This document shows, in pieces, positions 50,459 to 64,000 of a stretch of DNA of 64,000 nucleotides. A program made the position numbers and the translations under genes. Within the stretch, counting starts at the first letter, position 1; each line of letters starts with the position of its first letter. This stretch comes from a bacterium HR11. Its GTDB lineage: Bacteria; Acidobacteriota; HRBIN11. The stretch covers positions 62,001 to 126,000 of the forward strand of contig BEHN01000004.1 in NCBI GenBank assembly GCA_002898535.1, in the 5' to 3' direction. The notes beneath the pieces are model-generated. The model made no database searches. It saw only the letters and a list, made by a program, of their open reading frames with translations, and was not told the DNA's origin.

Positions 50459-51592
50459 TTACACCGCGCCCATCGCTCGGTGAAGGTCTCGGACGGCCTC
50501 AGCCAGACGATGCCGCTGGTGGAGGAGGGCCCCGCCGATCAAGAAAATGGCTTCGGTCCCATAAGTGGCGACCATCTCGGGGACTCGGTCCAGGGTCATC
50601 CCGCCGGCCGGGACCGGGAAGATGGTGCGGATAGCGCCCATCGGACGGGCCGTCGCCTCGGCGATGGCCTGGCAGATCTCCCGAGAAAAAGCGACGAACC
50701 GCCCCCCGTAGTTCGGAAAAATGGTGGCATCCGCCCCGGCCAGGCGCATGAGCTGACCCAGCAGGACCCCGGGGGCGATGCCCGATTCCGGCCCCACGAG
50801 GAAGCTCCCCAGGAAGGCCGGGTGCGCCATCAAGGGGAGGGCGACCCGGTCCTCGTCGGCCAGGGCGCGGAGGGTATCCAGGCCCGTCAGGCCGGGGCTA
50901 AGGAGGAGCCCGCCCGCGCCGGCTCGGCGGGCATATTCGGCCCGCTCGAAGACCCGGTCCGCCGGGGCCGTGACGTTGGGCATGTAAATCGCCCGGCGGC
51001 CCGTCTCTCGATTCGCCCGCTCGACGGCCTCGACGCAACGGGGGACCCGCTCCCGAAACGGGCAAAACGGCGGGTCGGCGATCCCGTGGTCGTCCTTGAT
51101 GAGGTCCACGCCGGCCCGGGCCATCTCGTAGGCCAGCTCCGCCATTTCTTGAGGAGCCAGGCCCATCGGCTTCAGGGCCGTGCACAGGAGGGGTCGGTCC
51201 CACACCCCGAGAATCTCCCGAAGGCCGGTCCGACCGAACCGGGGGCCCCGGAAGTGGCGAAGGAAGCTGTCCGGGAACTCGATGGCCTCGACCCGGATGC
51301 CGGGCTTCAGGCTGACGTTGCCGAAGACGACGTTCAGGAGCTGGGTGAGCTCGGTCCCGACGACCTCGACGGCATAACTGATGACGGCTTCAAAGGCCGT
51401 CGGTCCGATGGGCCGCAGGTCCTCGATACAGCCTACGACCTGGGCCCGGATGTCCTCCCGAATCGGCAAGTCCTCCGGCACTTCGACGGTCTGCTCGTAG
51501 CAGATGTCCCGGGCCCGGGCATGGGCCTCCGCCTCGGAGTCGGCCCGGATGCGGTACGTGACGTGCAACCGTTCGCCGGAGAGTCTCAGCAT
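50459..51592 (-). CDS. RuBisCO-like protein (form IV)
   Basis: A 377-residue RuBisCO large-subunit homologue. The substrate-lysine region is TALKPMGL, the activation region DLIKDDHGI keeps Lys and Asp but replaces the usual Glu (KDDE) by His, and loop 6 is FPNYGGRF instead of the GKxxG form. VPAGGMTLDRVPEM corresponds to the phosphate-binding SGG region. These changes exclude CO2 fixation. It is likely an enolase, isomerase or decarboxylase of phosphorylated sugar-like compounds. It follows the two transketolase genes, 53 bp after the C-subunit. Confidence 0.85.
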   Translation of the reverse strand: MLRLSGERLHVTYRIRADSEAEAHARARDICYEQTVEVPEDLPIREDIRAQVVGCIEDLRPIGPTAFEAVISYAVEVVGTELTQLLNVVFGNVSLKPGIRVEAIEFPDSFLRHFRGPRFGRTGLREILGVWDRPLLCTALKPMGLAPQEMAELAYEMARAGVDLIKDDHGIADPPFCPFRERVPRCVEAVERANRETGRRAIYMPNVTAPADRVFERAEYARRAGAGGLLLSPGLTGLDTLRALADEDRVALPLMAHPAFLGSFLVGPESGIAPGVLLGQLMRLAGADATIFPNYGGRFVAFSREICQAIAEATARPMGAIRTIFPVPAGGMTLDRVPEMVATYGTEAIFLIGGALLHQRHRLAEAVRDLHRAMGAV

Positions 51593-51645
51593 GTTCGGTA
51601 TCGAGTGGGGCCAGCGACCCAGGCTCCGTCCCGGAAGCCGAGGCC

Positions 51646-52665: not shown

Positions 52666-53134
52666 CTACCATCGGGCAGATCGGCAGGGTCGGCAGATGG
52701 GGCAGGTCGGCGGTCGGCAGTCGGCAGGTAGGCAGGTAGGCAGATAGGGTCCCATGCGCGATTCGCTGTTCCTCCTTCATTTCAGGCGGTGGGCAAGGCC
52801 GACCTGACGCCCCTCCCACAAACTGAACCACTCTGTTAGCAGAGCTGTTCGGTTGGGAGAAATGTTGCTCCCATCCGGGAAAACGGTGGCCCAGCGATCT
52901 CGATTTTTCAAGCTTTGTTAAGGATGACACCGCCATGACGGGCGGTGTTTGGAGGGGATGACACCGCCATCCCTGGCGGTGTTCAGATGGGATCGACCCG
53001 GCCAGGACGGGCGGTGCATGAGGATGACGCCCGCAGGACGGCCGGTGTTCCGGGGATAGACACCCGTCTCCCGACCTGCCGACCTGCCCATCTGCCCATC
53101 TGCCCATCTGCCCACCTGCCAAATGCCCATCTGC
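52666..53134. repeat. 469-bp spacer between the transketolase halves
   Basis: GGCAGAT/GGCAGGTA word arrays lie at 52676-52748 and 53072-53146. Most of the rest is element B1 (52836-53146). I see no gene. Confidence 0.8.
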
Positions 53135-54088: not shown

Positions 54089-54097
54089 AAGCGTCCT

Positions 54098-54415
54098 ATC
54101 AGAGCCGTTCGGTTCGTGAGAATGGCGTCGGAACAACCTTTCCCATCCCTCGGGAAGCACGATGTTTCAAGCATTCGGCAGATGGGCATTTGGCAGATGG
54201 GCAGGTCGGCAAGTCGGGCGACGGGCGTCTATCCCCGGAACACCGGCCGTCATGCGGGCGTCATCCTCATGCACCGCCCGTCCTGGCCGTGTCGATCCCA
54301 TCTGGACACCGCCAGGGATGGCGGTGTCATCCTTAACAAGCTTGAAAAATCGAGATCGCCGGGCCATCGTCTTCCCGGATGGGAACCGCATTTCTCCCGA
54401 CCGAACGGCTCTGTT
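54098..54415 (+). mobile_element. Chimeric MITE-like element, copy B2 (complete)
   Basis: Starts TATCAGAGCCGTTCGGTTCG, like family A for about 100 bp (CACGATGTTTCAAGCATTCGGCAG). It then switches to the hairpin-unit array (ACACCGGCCG..., CACCGCCAGGGATGGCGGTG), and ends with GCTTGAAAAATCGAG and CCGAACGGCTCTGTTA. TA dinucleotides lie at both ends; length about 318 bp. Confidence 0.8.
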
Positions 54416-56755: not shown

Positions 56756-57784
56756 CCGACGTCATCCCCCAAGAGCTCTGGAGTGCAGGATACAAGATGC
56801 GGGATGCGGGGTGCAAGATATACAAGATATCAGAGCCGTTCGGGAGGTGAGAAGTGCGATGGGAAGCGGAAGGGGTACCTCCACGAAAGCATGATGTTTC
56901 AGGCAGTCGGCAGATGGGCAGTCGGCAGATGGGCAGGTCGAGAGACTGGCGTCTATCCCCGGAACACCGGCCGTCATGCCGGTAGCTTCCGCAGAGAGCC
57001 CGCCGTCCTGCGGGCGTCCTCCTCAGGCACCGCCCGTCATGGCCGGGTCCTCCGGAGGAAGCTTGAAAAATCGAGATGGCCGGGCCATCGTTTTCCCGGA
57101 TGGGAGCGGCATTCCTCCCAACCGAACAGCTTGGATATACGGGATGTGGGCGGCCGGGGTCTGGGGATCTATCCCGGCCTCCTACTTCCGATAATAGAGC
57201 CCTTCGGCCCGGGAGAAGGGCGTCGGGACGGCCTTTTCCACCCCACGGGAAGCACGATGTTTCAAAGGGGCGGAGTGACGCGCAACGGCCTTGGGCCGGT
57301 CATCCGAGTCTAATCGGTAGGAGGTCGTGCGGGTCCGGATTCTGCCAGGCCCGTCGCCTGTCCCGGAAAGACTTTTCCCGGGTCCATGACGCCTCGCGGC
57401 CTCTTGGCCTGGAACCTAGTGGCGACCCGGTACGGCCGATCAGTCGAACGACTGGGCTGTGCGCCGGACGCGGGCCCCGACCGGGACCGGCGCCTCTCGG
57501 AGAGACGATTCCATGTAACCCCGATGCTTTTCATTTCTCCAACTCTTATGAGGAATGGGACAACTCTGTGGATGGGCCGACTCCTGATGCTATGAGCAAA
57601 ACATAGTAGTGACCGACCTGTACGGGATACCTCAGAACGTTGAGAGTCATGGCGGCGTCACAAGAAAAACCGAGCGCTTGCAGTCATGCGGGCGTTTGAA
57701 AACGCGCCCATCAGGTTTGCATTTACAGGTGGTCACTACCCAAATCGTCAGGCGAGTCGGCCGACCGATGAAGGAGGAGGCATC
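56756..57784. repeat. 1-kb spacer: repeats then a putative regulatory region
   Basis: 56780-56828 has GATACAAGATGCGGGATGC words and 56829-57136 is element B3. 57186-57300 is a partial MITE with the interior shared with 38959-39100. 57301-57784 shows no gene, but 57535-57760 is less GC-rich and holds the inverted repeat GTAGTGACC (57606-57614) / GGTCACTAC (57731-57739), probably regulatory for the flavoprotein. Confidence 0.65.
56829..57136 (+). mobile_element. Chimeric MITE-like element, copy B3
   Basis: Left end TATCAGAGCCGTTCGGGAGG, core ATGATGTTTCAGGCAGTCGG, a hairpin-unit array (ACCGGCCGTCATGCCGGT, CCGCCGTCCTGCGGGCG), then GAAGCTTGAAAAATCGAGAT. The right end CCGAACAGCTTGGATA is mutated relative to CTCTGTTA. 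Confidence 0.75.
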
Positions 57785-59254: not shown

Positions 59255-59473
59255 TTAGCGCCATGAGGCGCGGTGGGCCTCCTGAAAGGTCCGGGCCAGA
59301 CAGTGGGCCAGGAGGGTCTTGACCTGTGGGGGCCGGAGTAGATCACGTGACCCCGCACGAAGGGGGCGTAGATCGTCAAGGGCATGACCCGGTCGAGACC
59401 CGGGACGACCCGACCGACCGTTGCGGTCAGGCGCCTCAGCGCTTCATGCACCGCTGGAAGCGTCTCGACCCCT
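59255..59473 (-). pseudogene. Possible frameshifted small gene
   Basis: On the minus strand one frame reads GVETLPAVHEALRRLTATVG...YAPFVRGHVIYSGP. A one-base slip at a C-run then gives PQVKTLLAHCLARTFQEAHR to a TAA at 59255-59257. Both pieces look protein-like and meet end to end, suggesting a decayed or mis-sequenced gene of about 70 codons. I recognise no family. Confidence 0.3.
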
Positions 59474-59656: not shown

Positions 59657-59685
59657 TTGACAATTGACGCCGACCCGTGTATAAA
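59657..59685 (+). promoter_or_regulatory. Strong sigma-70-type promoter of the haem-copper oxidase operon
   Basis: TTGACA (59657-59662), 17-bp spacer, TATAAA (59680-59685), 63 bp before the subunit II start. It is close to full consensus. Confidence 0.75.
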
Positions 59686-59747: not shown

Positions 59748-60308
59748 ATGAGTCGCCATATCCCCATCTTTCTCCTGGAAGCCGTCAGCGCCGGGATCGT
59801 CCTGGTGTTCGCCTACGTGGCCCTCCGGTCCCGACGGTCCGGGACCGTCTCGCCCGACCGGGCCCGGCGGCTCCAGACGGCCCTCCTGATCGGACTCCTG
59901 GGTTTTGCCGGTCTGTTCCTGGCCTTCACCTTCCCGCGAGCCCCCTACCCCCGGCGGGCCGAACGTCCGGACCGGGTCGTGTTCGTCGTCGGCAAGCAGT
60001 TCAACTTTGCCGTCTCGGAGCGTCCCATCACGAACGACCGGGAGTGGGAGGAGGTCGTCCAATTCGGGGAGCCGGTGACGGTGTCGGCCGGCGAGCTGGT
60101 CGAATTTCGCGTCACGAGCTTTGACGTCAATCATGGGTTTTCGCTGTATGACCCGGACCGCACGCTCCTGGGCCAGGTCCAGGCCATGCCGGGCTATGTG
60201 AACCGTCTGCGGTTCCGTTTTGCCAAGCCGGGTCGGTACGAGGTCCTCTGTCTCGAGTACTGCGGCAACGGTCATCCCCGGATGCGGGGCTACTTCTACG
60301 TGAAGTGA
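59748..60308 (+). CDS. Haem-copper oxidoreductase subunit II with CuA site
   Basis: A 186-residue protein with two hydrophobic segments near the N-terminus (about 8-26 and 45-63) and a cupredoxin domain. The CuA ligands are complete: His129 (DVNHGF) and Cys168, Cys172, His176, Met179 in CLEYCGNGHPRM. It is shorter than most subunit II proteins, similar to ba3-type small subunits. It starts at ATG 59748 after CGGAGG, behind a strong promoter, and precedes subunit I by 119 bp. Confidence 0.92.
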   Translation: MSRHIPIFLLEAVSAGIVLVFAYVALRSRRSGTVSPDRARRLQTALLIGLLGFAGLFLAFTFPRAPYPRRAERPDRVVFVVGKQFNFAVSERPITNDREWEEVVQFGEPVTVSAGELVEFRVTSFDVNHGFSLYDPDRTLLGQVQAMPGYVNRLRFRFAKPGRYEVLCLEYCGNGHPRMRGYFYVK

Positions 60309-60427
60309 CGACGGGTGGGTTGACGGAGGGACGAGGCGGTGCCCCTGCGGGGCGCCCGAGTCTATCCCCTTTCAGTCCGTCCCTCCGGCTCTTCGTCACC
60401 CCATCCTGTCTGTCGGTGGAGGTGGCC

Positions 60428-61972
60428 ATGGCGCATGGAGAAGCCCAAGCCCTGCCCTGGCAGGCCCCCGTCATCCTGGAGAAGGAGGCGGCGGTCTCGG
60501 AGGCGGAGGACATCGGCTTCCGGCGGGTGACGCTCGTCTGGATCACGACGGTCCTGGCGCTCTTTGCCGTCCTGGGTGTCCTGGGCTGGCTGATGCGTTT
60601 GACCCAGGGTCGCTTCCTGACCCTGCGGCCCGAGTGGTTTTACAGCCTCATGACCCTCCACGGCCTCGGCATGTTTGGAACGTGGTATATCTCGACGATG
60701 GTCGGGGTCCGTTACCTGCTTACCCGATACGCCCGTCTGAGTCTTTCGGTGAGTTGGGTCGTCTACCTCATCACCCTTGGGGCGGTGGGCCTCTTTGTGG
60801 TCGCCACGCTCGTCGGTCGATTCAGTCCCGGTTGGTACTTTTTGTATCCGCTTCCGTTCCATTCCCAGGGCGTCTGGAAGCCCTGGGCGACGACCATGTT
60901 CCTTACGTTTGTGGCCCTCCTGGGGGTCGCCTGGGTGATCTGGGAAGTCGACGTCCTGCGGGCGATCGCGCGGCGGTGGTCCCTGCCCCAGGCACTGGGG
61001 TGGGACGTCCTGTTCGGGCGGCGGAACGTCTCCGACGTCCCCCTGGCCGTTCACATCGCCACGGTCATGCTCGTCCTGCACCTCTCGGCCTTGCTGGCCG
61101 CCGTAGTCCTCCTGACCCTTTACGCCCTGGAGGGCATCGGCACGGGCCTTCAGAACGACCCCCTCCTCATGAAGAACCTGACGTTTTACTTCGGCCACGT
61201 CACGGCCGAGGTCACGACCAACCTCTCGTTCCTGATCGTCCTGGAGCTGATGCCGAGGCTGGCGGGGCGGCCCCGGTTTTACGTGAACCGCATGTTCGCC
61301 GCGGCCTTCAACGTCGTCCTCGTCCTGATCGCCATCACGTATCTCCACCATCTCTTGATGGACTTTGCCCAACCCTTCTGGCTCCGCATCCTCGGGCAGA
61401 CGGCGTCTTATCTGATTCCTATCCCGGCGGCGGTCGTGACGATCTTCGTCACCCTGAGCCTCGTTTACGGCTCCCGCATGCGATGGACCCTCCCGGCCGT
61501 GCTCTTCTACTTGGGCGTGATGGGCCTGGCCATCGACGGCGTGGGGGCCGCCTTTATCAGCTCCACGCCGGCCCTGCAGTTCCTCTTCCACAACACGCTG
61601 GTCGCGGTCGCCCATCTTCACCTGGGCTTTCTCATGGGCGTCGTACTCATCAGTCTTGGATTTGCCTTCCAGTTCGTGAAGGAGCTCAGTCAGACCGACG
61701 AGACGCCCCGGATGACCTGGGTGGTCCCGGCCCTGCTGGCCGTCGGCGGGTATGGTTTGGTCCTGATGTTCTCCCTGGCAGGCGCGGCTTCTGTCCCCCG
61801 TCGGTACGCCATCTATCCTGAGGAGCTGGCGCAGGGCGTCACGATGGCGAGGTGGGCCGTCGTGCCTCTCGTCCTCCTGACGGTCGGCGTCCTCCTCTAC
61901 CTGTGGGAGTTGATTCGGCGATGGCCTCGCGCTTGGGCGGCGTTGCGGCCCTCCTCGGCTGGGGGCTCCTGA
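60428..61972 (+). CDS. Haem-copper oxidoreductase subunit I, Tyr-less (possible NO reductase)
   Basis: A 514-residue protein with 12 predicted membrane helices. Haem and CuB/FeB ligands are present: His78 (TLHGLGMF), His257, His307-His308 (YLHHLL), His396 and His398 (VAHLHLGF). At the position of the Tyr cross-linked to the CuB-ligand His (GHxxxY) the sequence is FGHVTAEVTTN, so Glu261 replaces Tyr. NO reductases have Glu at this place (HLWVE). The ALQFLFHNT segment resembles B-type oxidases. ATG 60428 follows GGTGG. Confidence 0.85.
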   Translation: MAHGEAQALPWQAPVILEKEAAVSEAEDIGFRRVTLVWITTVLALFAVLGVLGWLMRLTQGRFLTLRPEWFYSLMTLHGLGMFGTWYISTMVGVRYLLTRYARLSLSVSWVVYLITLGAVGLFVVATLVGRFSPGWYFLYPLPFHSQGVWKPWATTMFLTFVALLGVAWVIWEVDVLRAIARRWSLPQALGWDVLFGRRNVSDVPLAVHIATVMLVLHLSALLAAVVLLTLYALEGIGTGLQNDPLLMKNLTFYFGHVTAEVTTNLSFLIVLELMPRLAGRPRFYVNRMFAAAFNVVLVLIAITYLHHLLMDFAQPFWLRILGQTASYLIPIPAAVVTIFVTLSLVYGSRMRWTLPAVLFYLGVMGLAIDGVGAAFISSTPALQFLFHNTLVAVAHLHLGFLMGVVLISLGFAFQFVKELSQTDETPRMTWVVPALLAVGGYGLVLMFSLAGAASVPRRYAIYPEELAQGVTMARWAVVPLVLLTVGVLLYLWELIRRWPRAWAALRPSSAGGS

Positions 61973-62739
61973 CCCTGGGGGTCGGTCTCGTCCCGGGTCC
62001 GGGGCTCGGTGCCCTGGCCCGGGACGCCGGGGCCGGACCGGAGGGACCTTACGGGATCCCCCGGGAGGAGCGCTATCTCTATCGGCCCGTACCGAACGTG
62101 ACGGTCACCACGCGGAACGGCACCGTGTCCCTGGACCGGCTCTGGCAGGACCGGTCCGTCCTGCTGACCCTGGTGTACACCCGTTGCGCCGGCGTGTGCT
62201 ACCCCTTCGTGCGGTCCCTGAAAGAAGCCGTCCGCCGGGTCGGGGGCCTCGGCCGGGATTACCGGGTCGTGGTCCTCAGTTTCGACCCCCGGGACACCGT
62301 CGAGACGATGGCGTCGATGGCCCGAGCCGTCGGCTTAGCGGACCATCCCGATTGGGTCTTTGGCGTGACGACCCCGGCCGCCATCGAGCGGCTGACCCGC
62401 ACGGTCGGCTACTGGACCCGGTGGGATGCGGCGACCCGGCAGTATGACCACCCGTCTGTCCTGATCGGCATCGACCGGGGCCGGGTCGTCCGGTTCCTCG
62501 TCGGCGCCGCCGTCGTTCCCGACCGCCTGTACGAGGTCGTCCGGGAGCTCCGGGGGGAATTCGTCGGGACCTATCCCCTGCCGAGGAAAAACGTCGTCTT
62601 CCGATGCCTCCAGTACCGACCGGGTCAGGGGACCACGCTGGATTGGGGCTTCCTGTTGCTTCCCGCGCCGGGGTTTGTCGCCTTCGGGATGACGGCCCTC
62701 ATCTTCTGGAAAGTCCGCCGCCGACGGAACGTCGGGTAG
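61921..62739 (+). CDS. SCO1/SenC-type copper chaperone
   Basis: A 272-residue protein with an N-terminal signal/anchor (about 6-30), a thioredoxin-like domain with Cu-binding CAGVC (Cys89, Cys93) and the third ligand His177 (YDHPSVL), and a C-terminal membrane helix (about 243-265). SCO proteins deliver copper to CuA. ATG 61921 lies inside the subunit I gene (52-bp overlap), so the two are probably co-translated. Together with subunits II and I it forms a compact enzyme-plus-assembly operon. Confidence 0.9.
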   Translation: MASRLGGVAALLGWGLLTLGVGLVPGPGLGALARDAGAGPEGPYGIPREERYLYRPVPNVTVTTRNGTVSLDRLWQDRSVLLTLVYTRCAGVCYPFVRSLKEAVRRVGGLGRDYRVVVLSFDPRDTVETMASMARAVGLADHPDWVFGVTTPAAIERLTRTVGYWTRWDAATRQYDHPSVLIGIDRGRVVRFLVGAAVVPDRLYEVVRELRGEFVGTYPLPRKNVVFRCLQYRPGQGTTLDWGFLLLPAPGFVAFGMTALIFWKVRRRRNVG

Positions 62740-62855: not shown

Positions 62856-64000
62856 ATGACGTCCGTTACCTTAGACCATCGGCGGCTCTATCGTTTGCCC
62901 TGGACCCTCCCGGACAACGGAATCTCCTGGCTCGAGCCGACGTCGGCCTGCAACATCGTGTGCGTCGGCTGTTACCGGGAGAACCTGCCGTCGTCCCACA
63001 AGCCCCTCGAAGTCGTCCGGGAGGAGATCGACACGTTCCAACGTCTGCGTAAGTCCGACTGCATCTCCATCGCCGGCGGCGAGCCCCTCCTGCATCCCCA
63101 GATCGTCGAGATCGTCCGGGAGATCGCCGCCCGGGGCTTCAAGCCCATCATCAACACGAACGGCGTGGCCTTGACGCCGGAACTCCTGCGGGAGCTCAAG
63201 AAGGCAGGCGTCCGGGGCTTTACCTTCCACATCGACAGCCAGCAGTTTCGGGCCAAGTGGCGGGGCAAGAACGAAATCGAGTTGAACGAGCTCCGACTGC
63301 ACTACGCTCAGATGCTGGCCGAGGTCGGGGGCCTCTCCTGCGCCTTCAATGCGACAGTTTACGAAGACAACCTCCCGTACGTCCCCGACATCGTCGAGTG
63401 GGCGGCCCGGCACATCGACATCGTCCACGTCGTCGTCTTCATCGCCTATCGGCAGATCGTCCCCCGGCTGATGGAGAACTTCGAATTTTACGCCGGCGGC
63501 CGGAAGGTCGACCTGAATCCCCTCCCCTACGTGGCCGACGGGGAGCAAAACGTCGGCATCCGTTCGACCGACATCCTGGCCGTGATCCGCCAGCGCTTCC
63601 CCGACTTCATGCCCTGCGCTTACCTCAACGGGACGGAGCGGCCCGACTCGTTCAAGTGGCTCCTGACCGTCCGCGTAGGTGCCCGGGGCGGAAAGGTCCT
63701 GGGCTACGTCGGCCCCAAATTCATGGAGTTCGTCCAGACGCAACACCACCTGTGGCGGGACCGGTACCTCGCCTACGCCCACCCCCGGATGTTACGGTTT
63801 GGGCGGTCCGGATGTCTCCTGCTGTCGCCGCTCGACCGGGGTGCCCGGAGCGTCGTCACCCGCTACCTGGCCTGGGCTCTTCGGAATCCCTTACGACTCT
63901 TTCGACCCCTGCACTTCCAGTCCGTCATGATCATCCAGCCGGTCGACATCTTGGAAGACGGCCGTCAGGACATGTGCGACGGCTGTCCGGACGTGACGGT
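62856..64000 (+). CDS. Radical SAM protein (3' end outside window)
   Basis: At least 381 codons, still open at the window end. The cluster motif CNIVCVGC (Cys32, Cys36, Cys39, CX3CX2C) is followed by SIAGGEPLLHP and INTNGVALT (about 75-105), all typical of the radical SAM/SPASM group. A later CDGC at the truncated end may begin an auxiliary cluster site. ATG 62856 follows GAGGAGG. It is 116 bp after the SCO1 gene. Its product could be a modified peptide or cofactor; not assigned. Confidence 0.88.
   Translation, partial: MTSVTLDHRRLYRLPWTLPDNGISWLEPTSACNIVCVGCYRENLPSSHKPLEVVREEIDTFQRLRKSDCISIAGGEPLLHPQIVEIVREIAARGFKPIINTNGVALTPELLRELKKAGVRGFTFHIDSQQFRAKWRGKNEIELNELRLHYAQMLAEVGGLSCAFNATVYEDNLPYVPDIVEWAARHIDIVHVVVFIAYRQIVPRLMENFEFYAGGRKVDLNPLPYVADGEQNVGIRSTDILAVIRQRFPDFMPCAYLNGTERPDSFKWLLTVRVGARGGKVLGYVGPKFMEFVQTQHHLWRDRYLAYAHPRMLRFGRSGCLLLSPLDRGARSVVTRYLAWALRNPLRLFRPLHFQSVMIIQPVDILEDGRQDMCDGCPDVT

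Follow-up and report, generated by a model that had tools for sequence, protein, structure and literature searches.

A haem-copper enzyme assigned to the sNOR lineage, with glutamate at the oxidase tyrosine position and a remodelled active-site pocket

Haem-copper enzymes pass electrons from CuA to a low-spin haem and on to a binuclear centre, and the residue at the position of the active-site Tyr (Y, E, Q, D or N) sorts oxidases from the nitric oxide reductase (NOR) families. One of these, sNOR, is presumed to convert toxic nitric oxide to nitrous oxide. The locus described here raises the question of what is catalysed by an enzyme that has a CuA-bearing subunit II and Glu at this position. 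It lies at 59748–62739 of the window, by which we mean the whole stretch of 64 000 nucleotides that was analysed. The initial annotation had read it as a ‘CuA-type NO reductase or other non-oxidase’, in part because of the likeness of this Glu to that of the cytochrome c-dependent NO reductases (cNOR).

Three open reading frames, all on the + strand, make up the locus and encode a CuA subunit II, a haem-copper subunit I and a protein of the SCO1/SenC family. The first, norS-like (59748–60308, 186 aa), specifies a CuA cupredoxin that matches Pfam COX2 over the cut-off (7e-5) and is homologous to sNOR subunit II, at 33–66% identity; in an alignment with 19 subunit II homologues its CuA site is complete, with every ligand present (H129 and C168-x-E170-x-C172-xxx-H176-xx-M179; 60132–60284). 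The norY-like gene (60428–61972; Pfam COX1, 5e-40) encodes the catalytic subunit of 514 aa from an ATG at 60428, with GGAGG just 5′ of it; the mechanically defined reading frame, of 555 aa, runs from a GTG farther upstream. General models name this subunit only COX1 or CtaD-like, with scores far under the equivalog cut-offs. The gene for the SCO1/SenC copper chaperone (61921–62739; Pfam SCO1-SenC, 7.5e-7) overlaps the end of norY, and its product keeps the copper ligands, CAGVC (CxxxC) and the conserved His. CuA subunit II and SenC are encoded in one operon with subunit I, the arrangement by which sNOR operons are recognized, and the earlier statement that a CuA subunit II and SCO1 are present is borne out down to the individual copper ligands.

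Subunit I retains all six His ligands (H78, H257, H307, H308, H396 and H398). Its helix VI motif, GHVTAE (residues 256–261), runs from the metal ligand H257 to Glu261 (61196–61210, + strand; Glu261 codon GAG, 61208–61210), which replaces the Asn of sNOR and the Tyr of oxidases. Glu261 pairs with the Tyr of the mitochondrial COX1 motif GHPEVY in a HMMER alignment, and the register is the same in every family alignment, in agreement with the initial annotation on both the His ligands and the position of the Glu. That reading would have been undone by a Tyr elsewhere able to take the same place; in the alignments there is none at helix VI +4, which is E261, or at the position used in cbb3 oxidases, helix VII −6, which is Ile301. 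A substitute Tyr of the cbb3 kind is ruled out, because both sites are occupied by other residues. An AlphaFold2 model of subunit I (pLDDT 72, pTM 0.78) has the expected helices, is weak at residues 378–395 and finds its best Foldseek match in the ba3 oxidase 4g7s; a predicted structure with a pLDDT of 72 leaves the active-site geometry around Glu261 unproven.

Homologues of subunit I were drawn from a scan of GTDB genome contigs, the window's own phylum, two other genome groups and plasmids, and are about 29–53% identical to the window sequence. In IQ-TREE analyses the window falls within a 22-row sNOR clade (support 100/100), with L063 as its sister (96/95), and this clade is separate from the A, B and C oxidases, from eNOR and from the cNOR/NOD branch. 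The placement is unchanged when the columns of the remodelled helices, considered below, are dropped from the alignment. Both plasmid homologues, from Thermomicrobium roseum and Ruegeria pomeroyi (a species once placed in Silicibacter), fall in the same clade. The genus Silicibacter is entered under sNOR in Table A4 of PMC8756737, and the norSY-senC part of the norSY-senC-orf1 sNOR operon of ammonia oxidisers (PMC4940428) is ordered as in the window, an order also found in most of the relatives. We conclude that, judged by tree and gene order, the window enzyme is a member of the sNOR clade and operon type, a known kind and not a new class. The comparison with NOR and oxidase families that had been proposed as a check places the enzyme in sNOR, and the initial reading of a CuA-type NO reductase holds as a statement of lineage.

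For sNOR, the literature gives Asn at the Tyr position (PMC8756737). Asn is present there in every one of the homologues (22/22), which come from several phyla and include the sNORs of Ruegeria and Thermomicrobium; Glu is confined to the window, and a single Asn-to-Glu change on the tree accounts for it. For a residue so conserved across the aligned family, chance is no concern. Because Glu261 stands where an sNOR should have Asn, we do not file the enzyme as a standard sNOR and refer to it as an sNOR-lineage variant. Searches of 297 and 396 genomes of the same phylum (draws that overlap), of 291 and 346 genomes from two further groups, of the plasmids and of contigs in the GTDB scan gave no second Glu-bearing homologue, and Glu261 is known from one sequence in a single MAG-like draft genome.

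NORs are customarily recognized by a Glu, Gln, Asp or Asn in place of the Tyr (PMC3475470), and several families are therefore worth setting beside the window enzyme. The sNORs (NorS-NorY with SenC; Nitrosomonas, Ruegeria, Thermomicrobium) share with it the clade, the CuA subunit II, the linked SCO/SenC gene, the six His and the absence of Tyr, but their universal Asn is Glu261 in the window, which also changes 11 other invariant positions. The CuA NO reductase of Bacillus azotoformans (qCuANOR/bNOR), whose sequence is outside our tree, likewise has a CuA subunit II, a linked SenC, a B-type relation and a replaced Tyr, but the residue there is Asn (PMC3475470). The eNOR and gNOR enzymes are, like the window's, cupredoxin-subunit NORs in which the Tyr is replaced, but eNOR has Gln and forms a separate clade, and gNOR has Asp (literature, PMC8756737). 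The A, B and C oxygen reductases have a His-cross-linked Tyr, at helix VI +4 or, in cbb3, on helix VII, and the window has neither.

The cNOR and qNOR enzymes do share with the window a Glu at helix VI His +4. They form a separate branch of the superfamily, however, and the window has a CuA subunit II and neither the NorC haem c subunit nor a fused quinol domain. In cNOR, E215 and E280 are further Glu residues of the catalytic site; the corresponding positions in the window are N265 and I330. Close kinship with cNOR/qNOR on account of the Glu is ruled out by the trees, in which the window lies outside the NorB clade. The likeness to the cNOR Glu thus fails as a reason for the original assignment, the nearest relatives having Asn and the cNOR/NOD sequences being remote. 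These comparisons indicate that Glu261 was gained independently of the c/qNOR Glu, and that sharing it gives no ground for calling the window enzyme a cNOR relative.

Two observations on the relatives may be recorded here. L054 (G087:C103:49745-51112) and L057 (G028:C33:98131-99483) are qNOR-like and carry a putative NO dismutase signature, in which helix VII reads HN, not HH, and Gln stands at the site of the catalytic Glu (STLQVVP/STLQVLP), as described for such enzymes (PMC3413370); L057 lies ∼7 kb from the sNOR gene of G028, and both genomes, G028 and G087, belong to the window's phylum. The T. roseum plasmid NC_011961.1 carries two such enzymes, L032 and L027; one is eNOR-like (HGAQQ) and the other is an sNOR, which the annotation lists simply as a cbb3-type cytochrome oxidase subunit I.

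We consider the chances slightly better than even that the window encodes a haem-copper NO reductase that is fed through CuA and descends from the sNOR (norSY-senC) lineage, with a Glu gained convergently with that of c/qNOR. Electrons would pass from a c-type cytochrome or a cupredoxin to the CuA of subunit II, and thence through the low-spin haem (H78, H398) to the high-spin haem (H396) and the metal held by H257, H307 and H308, and at this binuclear centre two NO would be converted to N2O. Glu261, one helix turn from H257 and at the site of both the cross-linked Tyr of oxidases and the essential Glu of c/qNOR, would then be likely to act as a proton relay to bound NO or hyponitrite, as a fourth, carboxylate ligand of the B metal, or as both. 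We infer this role from the c/qNOR Glu, which is indispensable and serves either as a ligand of FeB or as a hydrogen-bond partner, via water, of the bridging oxygen (PMC10256718), and from the finding that a Tyr radical is not needed for NO reduction (PMC8079940). The B metal could be either CuB or FeB, NO is the presumed substrate, and the N2O formed may feed the NosZ encoded elsewhere in the genome.

Denitrification genes of this genome were checked family by family. It encodes a Sec-type clade II NosZ (872 bits, over the cut-off), with NosD and an ABC protein nearby, and can probably reduce N2O. Its only other haem-copper enzyme is a cbb3-like oxidase, which has FixO and carries the Tyr on helix VII; the presence of this oxidase and of NosZ would fit a separate NO-to-N2O step. 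The profile check gave no NirK over the cut-off and no convincing match to NirS in the genome, the cytochrome d1 hits being short, weak beta-propeller matches, and an internal source of NO is therefore not shown.

Glu261 is accompanied by a wider change. The window replaces 12 of the 55 positions that are invariant in the 17 other full-length homologues, and those others change 0 to 5. All 12 lie around the active site, in helix VI (N261E, Y265N, Y272L; 61208–61243, + strand) and helices IX–X (W367L, G370D, D378S, N384Q, W392V, V393A, P394V, F397L, Y400G; 61526–61627, + strand); the 43 others and every metal ligand are kept. The hypergeometric P for this clustering is about 1e-7, for segments defined post hoc. 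These pocket segments are normally the most conserved part of the family and in the window are the least conserved, with an identity to the family of 37% within them and 42% elsewhere, the reverse of the sister sequence L095 (63% and 47%). Taken on the alignments, the real anomaly of this enzyme is Glu in an Asn family together with a rebuilt pocket. We also asked whether the changes in helix X converge on cNOR (HxHL[AG]F-like). Agreement with the cNOR residue is limited to E261, L272 and L399, the last of which is not an invariant position, and within the pocket segments the window averages 23% identity to the cNOR/NOD rows and L095 20%; we therefore do not claim such convergence.

The 12 lost residues could mean an altered or a lost function. 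It is conceivable, though we hold it doubtful, that this sNOR branch evolved the c/qNOR catalytic Glu anew and reshaped helices VI, IX and X into a carboxylate-assisted, possibly iron, B site, and so arrived at an independent NOR chemistry on a B-type scaffold. We think it unlikely that the pocket was rebuilt for another reaction altogether, on a different N-oxide or with a different metal such as FeB; the concentration of the replacements in helices VI and IX–X and the reversed pattern of identity would suit such a change, but the six His and the CuA and SCO ligands are all kept, Glu at the Tyr position is normal in NO chemistry, and the genome gives no hint of another substrate.

The surroundings of the operon bear on the question of function loss. 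In the same-genus genome G026 the operon is missing from the corresponding site, where a MoxR-type ATPase gene, still intact, and a radical-SAM gene point away from each other across a retained promoter-like intergenic region; in the window a MoxR remnant is followed by the promoter-like region, then by the operon and the radical-SAM gene. The absence from the congener implies either accessory gain in the window or loss in G026. That a gene acquired at a rearranged locus is now losing its function is rather improbable. It would agree with the loss of invariant residues, the reduction of the adjoining MoxR gene and the lack of the operon in G026, but the norY frame is intact, its GC3 stays between 0.86 and 0.95, the odd segments included, the remaining invariant positions and all metal ligands are kept, and the changes are clustered, not scattered. 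Read together, the GC3 of 0.86, the intact frame and the spared ligands argue for a maintained gene that is not obviously decaying.

An NO reductase also remains our preferred reading over a Tyr-less high-affinity O2 reductase, which we regard as improbable. An oxidase role was put forward on expression grounds for the N. europaea sNOR (PMC6967387), and CuA and SCO are present here; the window nevertheless lacks Tyr both at +4 and at the site used by cbb3 on helix VII, and a cbb3-like oxidase that does bear the Tyr is already encoded in the genome, with FixO. A sequencing, assembly or local frameshift artefact, conceivable in a single draft genome, is very improbable, because the changes are dispersed single substitutions and compensating frameshifts in helices VI and X are rejected by the scores of the other frames (14–21, versus 56–97 for the real frame).

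The window sequence breaks the rule that sNOR has Asn, and classifiers based on this residue would therefore misfile the enzyme. If active, it would be a natural experiment in which Glu was acquired independently in a CuA-type reductase, and the role of the Glu, as proton relay or metal ligand, could be tested independently of everything else in the cNOR scaffold. The N2O yield of such enzymes bears on nitrogen-cycle inference from genomes.

The suggestion of a strong promoter finds little support, and that of constitutive expression is not sustained. The promoter-like element TTGACA-17-TATAAA (59657–59685, + strand) is visible in the sequence, but a strict promoter scan reported no site there, and G026, which lacks the operon, carries a comparable element 5′ of its radical-SAM gene. 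An FAD oxidoreductase encoded upstream was considered as a partner of the operon; it is also present in the congener, where the operon is absent, and is therefore not an operon member.

The remnant of the MoxR-type gene, intact in G026, occupies 59270–59451 of the window (− strand). The radical-SAM protein downstream of the operon (62856–63998 onward) is 97% identical in G026 and has distant matches to haem-synthesis and GDGT radical-SAM models. A dispersed repeat of ∼300 bp at 56828–57138 has > 40 copies, at 73–90% identity, in its own genome, with partial copies in the window at 54097–54410 and 52843–53112, and a repeat of ∼70 bp at 57192–57265 is present in very many copies in G026 and several in the window. 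A RuBisCO-like protein is encoded at 50459–51600 (− strand), for which the best model is DK-MTP-1P enolase, under the cut-off (222 of 409 bits).
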